Assembly (NCBI GenBank): GCA_026708035.1
Contig: JAPOVQ010000024.1
Span: 1 to 63,663, forward strand
DNA: 63,663 nt
Direction of reading: 5' to 3'
DNA from: Chloroflexota bacterium
GTDB taxonomy: Bacteria; Chloroflexota; UBA11872
Position 1 is the first letter of the stretch. Every line of letters begins with the position of its first letter. The translations under genes and the position numbers were made by a program. Positions 14,344 through 26,952 of this stretch are shown here, one piece after another. A model generated the notes under the pieces. The model had not been told where the DNA came from and did not search any database. It was given only the letters and a program-made list of their open reading frames with translations.

Positions 14344-14360
14344 GCGATTGCCGCCTGCCC

Positions 14361-15178
14361 GCGGTAGGGGCGGGTTTCAAACCCGCCCGCACGAGGACTT
14401 GCCGAGGATTCCCGACGGCACCAGGACCGAGCCCCTTCCGTACCCACGAGGGGGATGAGGGGGCAGCTCGCGGCTGGGACGAATTCCCAGGCTGCACGCA
14501 GCCTGGGCCACCGGGCAACGCTGGGTCGGTGTAGGGGCAGCCCTTGTGGCTGCCCGGATCGAACCAGGCGGGCGCCCACAAGGGGCGCCCCTACGCGGAC
14601 ATGGGCGCTGCCGGGCCTGGGCGTCCGGTTCCTTCTCCCCTGGTGCACACCGGTGCCTCTCCCCTCCGTCATTCCGGCGAAAGCCGGAATCCAGTCCGGT
14701 CGAACCGGCCGCCGAGCAGGCGGCCCGCGGTAGGGGCGGGTTTCAAACCCGCCCGCGCGAGGACTTGCCGAGGATTCCCGACGGGACCAGGATCGAGCCT
14801 TCCCCGTACCCACGAGGGGGATGAGGGGGCAGCTCGCGGCTGGGACGAATTCCCAGGCTGCACGCAGCCTGGGCCACCGGGCAACGCTGGGTCGGTGTAG
14901 GGGCAGCCCTTGTGGCTGCCCGGATCGAACCAGGCGGGCGCCCACAAGGGGCGCCCCTACGCGGACATGGGCGCTGCCGGGCCTGGGCGTCCGGTTCCTT
15001 CTCCCCTGGTGCACACCGGTGCCTCTCCCCTCCGTCATTCCGGCGAAAGCCGGAATCCAGTCCGGTCGAACCGGCCGCCGAGCAGGCGGCCCGCGGTAGG
15101 GGCGGGTTTCAAACCCGCCCGCGCGAGGACTTGCCGAGGATTCCCGACGGGACCAGGATCGAGCCTTCCCCGTAAGCA
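14361..15178. repeat. 366-bp tandem duplication (2.2 copies) of nested palindromes
   Basis: Copy 1 is 14361-14726, copy 2 is 14727-15092 and a partial copy 3 is 15093 to about 15178. Copies 1 and 2 differ at only a few sites near their start. Each unit holds, in order: a GTAG-headed GGGCGGGTTT palindrome; the perfect hairpin CCCAGGCTGC, AC, GCAGCCTGGG (14486-14507, 14852-14873); a REP (14531-14555, 14897-14921) facing an inverted REP (14570-14594, 14936-14960); and the CGTCATTCCGGCG element (14667-14699, 15033-15065). No gene is visible here; long open frames in it are translations of the repeats. Confidence 0.95.
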
Positions 15179-15208
15179 CGACGGGGAAAAGGGTGAAACC
15201 CACGTCGC

Positions 15209-25139: not shown

Positions 25140-25378
25140 CGTCATTCCGGCGGAAGCCGGAATCCAGTCCGATCAATCCCAGCGCGCGCCGGGCATTCGG
25201 GGTAGGGGCTGCCCCGTACTCGATACGGGGGCGGGTCTCAGACCCGGCCGACGCCGGGAATCCGGGCAGGCGCCGATTGGTCTCCCGCGTCGGTTACCTT
25301 TGCGAAATCCCTCCACCGGGAATTGTTAAGCCGGTCCTGTTCCCTCTCCCTCGAGGGAGAGGGTCAGGGTGAGGGGGG
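25140..25378. repeat. gene-free stretch with three repeat families
   Basis: CGTCATTCCGGCGGAAGCC element at 25140-25172; a GGGGCGGGTCTCAGACCCGG palindrome near 25233-25254 preceded by CCCCGTACTCGATACGGGG (about 25211-25229, itself a palindrome also seen near 53605 and 60210); and a GAGAGGG repeat at 25340-25378 that runs into the 3' end of folK and supplies its last codons and stop. No gene recognised in 24918-25363. Confidence 0.75.
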
Positions 25379-25900
25379 TCCGGTCCAGACGGCGTCCGGT
25401 CCCGCCACCGGCGCGAGGTCCTCGCGGCCCAGCCGGCGGTCGAGCTCGGCCAGCGTCGCGTCGTGGCCTGCCAACGTCTCACTCGGGGCAATGTCGGCCA
25501 GAGGGGCCGTCATGAAGGGCCGCTCGGCGACCCGGGGGTGCGGAATGGACACCCGCCGATTCACGATCTCCAGTCCGCCCAGGCTCACGATGTCCACGTC
25601 CAGCGGACGCGGGCCGTAGGGAATGCCCGGCCGGCGACCGGCTGCGAATTCGAGGCCCTTGCCCCACATCAAGAGCCGCACCGGCCCCAGCCCGGTGGTG
25701 AGACGCAGCGCCAGGTTCAGAAACGGCCCCTGGTGCACGTGCCCGGACGGCGGCGACTCGTAGATCGGCGACACCGCGTCGATGCGTCCAACCATCCCCA
25801 GCCCCGCCACCGCGACGCGCAAGAACCCCAGCCGGTCGCCCATGTTCGAGCCCAGGACCAGGAGGGCGGGGAGGGGGGTGTTAGGTGGATGTGGGGTCAT
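25364..25900 (-). CDS. folK: 2-amino-4-hydroxy-6-hydroxymethyldihydropteridine pyrophosphokinase
   Basis: 178 residues. Folate synthesis enzyme that pyrophosphorylates hydroxymethyl-dihydropterin. LVLGSNMGDR at the N-terminus, VSPIYESPP, the catalytic stretch GPRPLDVDIV (two Mg-binding Asp) and IPHPRVAERPFMTAPLADI are diagnostic. The usual RWGPRTLD is changed to YGPRPLD. Its last residues and stop are encoded by a GAGAGGG repeat. No folP or folB neighbour; the start codon overlaps the stop of the RAYT gene upstream. Confidence 0.92.
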   Translation of the reverse strand: MTPHPPNTPLPALLVLGSNMGDRLGFLRVAVAGLGMVGRIDAVSPIYESPPSGHVHQGPFLNLALRLTTGLGPVRLLMWGKGLEFAAGRRPGIPYGPRPLDVDIVSLGGLEIVNRRVSIPHPRVAERPFMTAPLADIAPSETLAGHDATLAELDRRLGREDLAPVAGPDAVWTGPPSP

Positions 25901-26712
25901 GGGTCCTCTGGCCGTTCAGCCAGCGGATTCTCGCGGTCAAATGCCCACCGAGCGGGGTTGTCGCGGACGTACTTCCGGACGTGACTGAGTGAATCCTCGC
26001 TCCGAACTATGTGTTCGTAGTACCTCCGCTGCCACAATCGCCGGTCGAATGGCGGCCAGCCGAGTTCCTTGACGCCGCGGATGTATTCCACAGTTACGAG
26101 TGATTTGTAGGCGCCGACGACATCGCCCAACGCAACACCCCCACGCGTAGGGGCAGCCCTTGTGGCTGCCCGGTCCTGGTCCTGATGGAATGGAGGCCGG
26201 GCGCCCACAAGGGGCGCCCCTACATCCGCGCCGACGACATCGCCTTGCGCGACACGCCGGCGTGTAGGGGCAGCCCTTGTGGCTGCCCGGTCCTGGTGCT
26301 GAGGGATTGGAGTCTGGGCGCCCACAAGGGGCGCCCCTACATCCGCGCCGACGACATCGCCTTGCGCGACACGCCGGCGTGTAGGGGCAGCCCTTGTGGC
26401 TGCCCGGTCCTGGTGCTGAGGGATTGGAGTCTGGGCGCCCACAAGGGGCGCCCCTACAGGGACGTCAATTCCGATGATTCCGTGCATGTGGTTGGGCATG
26501 ACGACAAAGGCGTCGAGACAAATGTTTGGAAACCGCTCAGGCAATGCTTGCCAGACCCGACAGGCCATCTCCCCGGCTGCGTTGAGGTGCATGTGCTGAC
26601 CGATCACGTCGCCGAAGAGATACGACCGGCCCTGCAAAGCAACGGTCACGAAGTAGACGCCAGTCTGGGAGTAGTCGTAGCCCTCTAGTCGGAGCGGGCG
26701 ACGACGGCGCAT
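25897..26712 (-). CDS. REP-associated tyrosine transposase (RAYT) carrying an in-frame triple REP array
   Basis: 271 residues. Y1/HUH transposase of the RAYT/TnpA-REP group. GYDYSQTGVYFVTVAL (11-26) opens the fold. The HUH motif is MPNHMHGII with H75 and H77. The C-terminal part LWQRRYYEHIVRSED and HVRKYVRDNPARW has the usual Tyr candidates (Y231/Y232, Y248). Between them, residues about 86-200 are three successive 39-residue repeats, starting at V86, V125 and V164 (VGAPLVGAQ or VGAPLVGAR), which are the translation of paired REP hairpins at 26147-26457. Without them the protein would be near 160 residues, the family norm. The native VGAYKS motif (199-204) follows the array. Its start region overlaps no gene; more REPs lie just upstream. 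Confidence 0.88.
   Translation of the reverse strand: MRRRRPLRLEGYDYSQTGVYFVTVALQGRSYLFGDVIGQHMHLNAAGEMACRVWQALPERFPNICLDAFVVMPNHMHGIIGIDVPVGAPLVGAQTPIPQHQDRAATRAAPTRRRVAQGDVVGADVGAPLVGAQTPIPQHQDRAATRAAPTRRRVAQGDVVGADVGAPLVGARPPFHQDQDRAATRAAPTRGGVALGDVVGAYKSLVTVEYIRGVKELGWPPFDRRLWQRRYYEHIVRSEDSLSHVRKYVRDNPARWAFDRENPLAERPEDP
26147..26457 (-). repeat. three tandem REP pairs (117-bp period) inside the RAYT gene
   Basis: Each 77-bp pair (26147-26223, 26264-26340, 26381-26457) is a left REP (GTAG, stem GGGCAGCC, loop CTTGT, stem GGCTGCCC) and an inverted right REP (GGGCGCCC, loop ACAAG, GGGCGCCC, CTAC). The 40-bp spacers repeat the host segment lying next to the first pair (compare 26109-26146), so REP pair plus host sequence were duplicated together. 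The period of 117 is exactly 39 codons. Units 2 and 3 are almost identical, unit 1 is diverged. Confidence 0.95.
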
Positions 26713-26773
26713 CTGATCGGGAGGGTCAGCCGAGGCAAATCAAAATCCTTGGGGGCATGTATGCCTATCCATG

Positions 26774-26952
26774 GTAGGGGGCAGCCCTGGTGGGTGCGCT
26801 GTGCCGGTCCTGATGGCTCGAAATCCGTGCGCCAACAAGGGACGCCCCTACGGGACTTCGATGGTGGCGCGTGCGCGGCGGCGGGGCGGGCGCCCACAAG
26901 GGACGCCCCTACAAGAGGTGGGTCGGTGTAGGGGCAGCCCTGGTGGCTGCCC
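26774..26952. repeat. REP pairs upstream of the RAYT gene
   Basis: A variant left REP (26774-26799) faces an inverted REP (26827-26851); then another inverted REP (26888-26912) and a left-facing one (26928-26952; stem GGGCAGCC with loop CTGGT). No gene is visible between the RAYT start at 26712 and the epimerase start at 27137. Confidence 0.85.

Follow-up and report, generated by a model that had tools for sequence, protein, structure and literature searches.

The RAYT (TnpA_REP) gene in the stretch of Chloroflexota DNA analyzed here (63,663 nucleotides; the window) contains within its coding sequence an in-frame tandem array of three REP pairs, which our analysis confirmed. The tandem repeat covers positions 26111 to 26458 and has a period of exactly 117, with 3.0 copies, 94% match, and 0 indels (TRF). 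In each of its units (A to C; Table 1), a REP, GTAGGGGCGCCCCTTGTGGGCGCCC, is separated by a 25-nt spacer from an inverted REP, GGGCAGCCACAAGGGCTGCCCCTAC, and ~39 nt duplicated from the host gene (...GDVVGA) follow. These ~39 nt at each unit's end are related to the host sequence GGVALGDVVGA, which comes after the last unit. In gene order, units A and B differ at the first 3 bases only, and 13 sites distinguish unit C from B. An inverted REP doublet, the arrangement by which REPINs are recognized, was found in every unit. A chance repeat was rejected on the period of 117, the lack of indels, and the REP motif itself, for which a search allowing ≤3 mismatches found 86 copies in the 3.46-Mb genome, versus 0 for a reversed-pattern control. 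A preliminary description of this DNA had proposed three paired, GTAG-headed REPs with an exact 117-bp (39-codon) period, duplication of host coding sequence (GDVVGA) along with the REP pair, and retention of frame by all three copies. TRF and the comparison of units agree on the period, the host copy is present in every unit, the 271-aa ORF is uninterrupted, and the GTAG-headed REPs belong to the genome's own family.

Table 1. Positions in the window of the RAYT gene, its REP array, and adjoining features.
Feature	Position	Strand	Remarks
folK (HPPK) gene	25364..25900	-	ATG overlaps RAYT stop (ATGA); name from sequence, not family search
RAYT / TnpA_REP gene, subclass 2.4-like	25897..26712	-	271 aa, ATG to TGA
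Catalytic Tyr motif Y248-V-R-D-N252-P253 (Y---NP)	25954..25971	-	Y248, N252, P253 invariant
Unit C	26111..26227	-	104/117 identical to B; continues into native LGDVVGAYKS host sequence
REP GTAGGGGCAGCCCTTGTGGCTGCCC in unit C	26147..26171	+	Exact REP match
Residues 97-184, predicted disordered	26161..26424	-	AlphaFold2 pLDDT <50 nearly throughout
Partner REP GTAGGGGCGCCCCTTGTGGGCGCCC of unit C pair	26199..26223	-	
Unit B	26228..26344	-	114/117 identical to A
REP in unit B	26264..26288	+	Exact REP match
Partner REP of unit B pair	26316..26340	-	
Unit A, first in protein	26345..26461	-	REP, spacer, inverted REP, host-derived spacer
REP in unit A	26381..26405	+	Exact REP match
Partner REP of unit A pair	26433..26457	-	
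HuH motif H75-M-H77	26482..26490	-	H75 and H77 invariant in 54 sequences
Extragenic REPs 5' of RAYT, usual REPtron flank	26773..26952		26773-26799, 26823-26852, 26888-26912, 26928-26952

It is very improbable that the triplication is an assembly artefact in which one or two units were misassembled as three. An assembler could have miscounted units A and B, which share 114 bp without a difference, but unit C is set apart from B by its 13 differing sites, the orthologue in the congener G004 independently carries two units at the same place, and short-read assemblies more commonly collapse repeats.

The identification of the gene as a RAYT, with a HuH motif at H75/H77 and a C-terminal tyrosine region, was borne out by family and profile matches and by conserved residues. 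The protein matched NCBIfam NF047646 (REP_Tyr_transpos; E = 4.5e-14), a match that is split by the loop and falls below the curated cut-off, and PF01797 (E = 0.0015, below the PF01797 cut-off), while a search with a 54-sequence profile retrieved E. coli TnpA_REP (4er8; E = 5e-8). Residues H75, H77, W227, Q228, R237, Y248, N252, and P253 are invariant in the 54-member RAYT alignment. The core of the AlphaFold2 model is mostly at pLDDT >90, and its best structural matches were ISDra2 TnpA and 4er8 (E = 1e-4 to 3e-4), consistent with the Y1 transposase core fold of class 2 TnpA_Y1 proteins. An IS200/IS605 (subclass 1.1) identity was rejected, given a tyrosine motif of Y---NP instead of Y---Q and the lack of near-identical copies in the genome; just one other RAYT-like match was found in the window's genome, G000 (G000:C14, 48% identity). 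Both the ORF and the model place the REP repeats between HuH and Tyr, as first described, in a loop between strand 75-82 (beta3, with the HuH) and helix 195-217 (alphaC). The insertion between beta3 and alphaC varies in RAYT homologues, and structure prediction, which had been suggested as a check on disorder, returned a loop that is predicted to be disordered.

The RAYT gene is flanked by REPs of the same dispersed genomic family (86 copies). Across 79 REP sites (those in the window, in 32 further G000 stretches, and in some G004 stretches, hence mostly G000), gene-like composition on both sides was found for the RAYT REP sites and for one weak candidate, L171, by a heuristic test of base composition by codon position. 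A Pfam scan of ten large ORFs overlapping other REP sites returned nothing informative, and several of these ORFs were in the wrong frame. Among the sites examined by composition, REPs embedded in coding sequence were found only in RAYT, bar the weak L171 candidate. Elsewhere in the window, REP copies at 14531 and 14897 lie within a 366-bp tandem repeat (14357-15187; 2.3 copies, 97% identical). A 113-bp tandem array of CTCCCTCTCCC/GGGAGAGGG motifs at 1549-1821 is apparently a separate repeat family, and a stretch near 25340-25375 resembles it.

The RAYT orthologue of G004 occupies the same epimerase-RAYT-folK locus (epimerase 96% and folK 91% identical), and its corresponding loop contains two units. 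One duplication is therefore older than the species split, and the extra identical unit of G000 is recent; the array has grown from at least two units to three. In G005, the epimerase and folK neighbors are present and RAYT is absent between them. The RAYT stop and the folK start overlap (ATGA, 25897-25900) in both G000 and G004, and the REP transposase gene thereby directly adjoins a folate-synthesis gene. Between G000 and G004, the catalytic halves of RAYT have a dN of 0.055 and a dS of 0.357 (ratio of 0.155), which indicates that the protein is under purifying selection and maintained. This ratio suggests that the protein is probably still made, as the preliminary description had thought likely; together with a frame open in two species, it led us to reject a pseudogene.

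The REP arms within the gene have diverged more slowly than spacers or synonymous sites. Changed positions between G000 and G004 numbered 5/106 in the arms versus 20/89 in the spacers (P = 3.8e-4) and 16/79 at 4-fold sites of the core (P = 1.7e-3), in a comparison that comprises one species pair and non-independent units. Selection on the REP and gene conversion with the ~70 to 80 genomic copies would both account for the difference. Within the genus, REPs number 73 and 52 in the genomes with a RAYT orthologue, 46 in G005, which has RAYT fragments, and 13 to 16 in three congeneric species without a RAYT match. This association of REP copy number with RAYT presence is only suggestive, as it covers six genomes (G000 to G005).

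Comparison of homologues and their loops, as the preliminary description had advised, revealed REP insertions in RAYT genes across many phyla. An exact GTAGGGGC/GCCCCTAC octamer was present within the ORF of 69 of 82 distinct homologues, a set mostly retrieved by queries that included the loop, and 143 of its 168 octamers were located in the loop. The forward head was read 83 times in the frame GTA-GGG-GC (V-G-A) and 7 times in the other open frame; it was never in the frame that yields TAG. The corresponding ratio for the GTAG head was 45:6:0 in a loop-blind sample (57 homologues from the same phylum, found with a loop-free C-terminal query). Stems of ≥8 bp occurred in 37/47 loops of ≥30 aa versus 1/10 short loops in that sample, and N- or C-terminal coding parts reached a stem of 8 bp in 5/57. 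This rest-of-gene comparison is more useful than synonymous resampling of loop codons, which is a weak null per gene, since loop peptides (e.g., VGAPLVGA) in themselves favor palindromic codons. Homologues whose loops are not REP sequence, which had been named as evidence against a self-carried array, were a minority (e.g., L115, L191, and L195, with short loops) and not the majority.

The interiors of the loop palindromes vary between lineages, and the palindrome core recurs in its own flanks at 21/63 loci, versus 11/756 when palindromes were swapped between loci. The loop palindrome matches a dispersed genomic REP family in G028, G031, and G032. An impression that the palindrome is found solely in RAYT in G026 and G029 was softened, as a few degenerate copies appear at 3 mismatches. 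Tandem duplications within the loop were found in 32/82 RAYTs, all with periods that are multiples of 3, a pattern partly forced by the requirement for an open frame. Several individual loci deserve mention. L038, from another bacterium, has an independent set of three tandem REP pairs in the RAYT loop, with a 26-codon period. The loop of L229 (G172:C3:800000-801700) consists of 14 VGAKN-type copies, each encoded by a GTAGGGGC head, forming an extreme run of REP half-sites with one palindrome at its end. Strong palindromes outside the loop were seen in the C-terminal part of the RAYT-like ORF at L105 and in the N-terminal part of that at L091.

The preliminary description knew of no described case of such an array, a statement contradicted by TnpA_REP subclass 2.4 and by homologues including L038. 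Quentin, Siguier, Chandler and Fichant (2018; PMC6006769) reported that tnpA_REP genes of subclass 2.4, which they cite as Bertels' group 4, predominantly have in-gene REP insertions that keep the frame and generally lie in a variable region at the periphery, between HuH and Y; they suggested that these insertions have little impact on activity. In-gene REPs as a kind have thus been known since 2018, and the 3-fold array with its host spacer is a clear, datable example. Common to the window RAYT and subclass 2.4 are in-frame REPs between HuH and Y (beta3-alphaC), a variable loop length, short repeats, flanking REPs, and the W-Q and Y---NP motifs. Unlike the published description, the window RAYT carries its REPs as three tandem pairs, duplicated together with host sequence, and its NHMH and YVRDNP motifs resemble the consensus NH[IFV]H and YIxNNP without matching it exactly (WQ is present). 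We call it subclass 2.4-like, a placement by loop insertion and in-frame REPs.

E. coli TnpA_REP (subclass 2.2; PDB 4er8) shares with the window RAYT the catalytic core fold, W-Q, E-H, and R residues at the same spacing, and the association with REPs but differs in its DHLH-type HuH and in REPs with bulged stems, and no in-gene REP is reported for it. REPINs (Bertels and Rainey 2011, PMC3116915) likewise comprise two inverted REPs with a short spacer; they are described as dispersed and mainly extragenic, whereas the doublets in the window belong to a coding sequence and form a tandem repeat. Di Nocera et al. (2013; PMC3733652) reported intragenic GTAG REPs, which also lie inside ORFs, often as dimers or groups. 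That article places them in genes such as uvrA and dnaE2 and describes the cognate transposase gene as REP flanked; REPs within it are not mentioned in the portion available. A term search of a 2021 study on the determinants of REP recognition (PMC8266576) found no mention of in-gene REPs. New here are the slower divergence of the REP arms, the matching of loop and local REPs, the V-G-A frame bias, and the restriction of coding REPs within a genome to RAYT, bar the weak L171 candidate.

The account we favor, and consider probable, is that of a subclass 2.4-type TnpA_REP that has carried its cognate REP pair in a disordered loop since before the two congeners split. The single-stranded REP hairpin is the substrate of E. 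coli TnpA_REP. By analogy, the REP pair would be the cognate single-stranded hairpin substrate of the window enzyme, and the in-gene palindromes may stay palindromic because the enzyme binds and cuts single-stranded REP hairpins. The loop would tolerate inserts under two rules only, that frame is kept and that GTAG encodes V-G-A and never gives a TAG stop. The array grew from at least two units to three by tandem duplication of the REP pair together with ~39 bp of host sequence, most likely by slippage or by unequal exchange inside the loop and without a separate function. The gene would then be a compact REPtron that always brings its cognate substrate along.

The main rival is passive tolerance with gene conversion, in which the loop takes REP insertions and slippage harmlessly and functionless REPs are kept similar to genomic REPs by gene conversion or re-insertion. 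Predicted disorder of the loop is consistent with such a passive landing site, as are the little effect on activity suggested in PMC6006769 and a like argument in PMC3733652 for intragenic REPs in other genes. RAYTs with short, REP-free loops exist, and the protein can therefore do without the insert. However, outside RAYT, REPs of this genome were not observed deep within genes, in-loop palindromes are found in most long-loop RAYTs across phyla, and they occur even in genomes where other copies are very few (G026 and G029), so we regard a purely passive origin as somewhat unlikely.

Autoregulation, in which in-gene REPs would limit expression of RAYT (and the adjoining folK) as mRNA hairpins or protein-bound single strands, appears quite unlikely to us. 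Folding of the array RNA is strong (-226 versus -173 kcal/mol for shuffles; z = -9), but any inverted-repeat array folds well. The overlap of the RAYT stop with the folK start is present in both species, yet this junction is specific to the locus and absent in G005. A reduction of RAYT expression by REP hairpins was proposed in PMC3733652.

Returning to a cognate REP pair carried in the loop, what is at stake is whether in-gene inserts are useful or merely tolerated. It is possible, though we think it unlikely, that the subclass is selected to keep its cognate REP palindrome within the gene, with the in-gene copy as a donor that seeds the genome's REP family. If so, transposase and substrate would travel as one unit and the triplication would be donor amplification. 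The slow divergence of REP arms and the match between loop and local REPs are hints that the insertions reported in the literature may be more than neutral. These observations touch on how REPs spread and on why each RAYT stays matched to its own REP family, and a transposase gene whose tolerated loop contains its presumed substrate offers a clean test of REP specificity, regulation, and spread.
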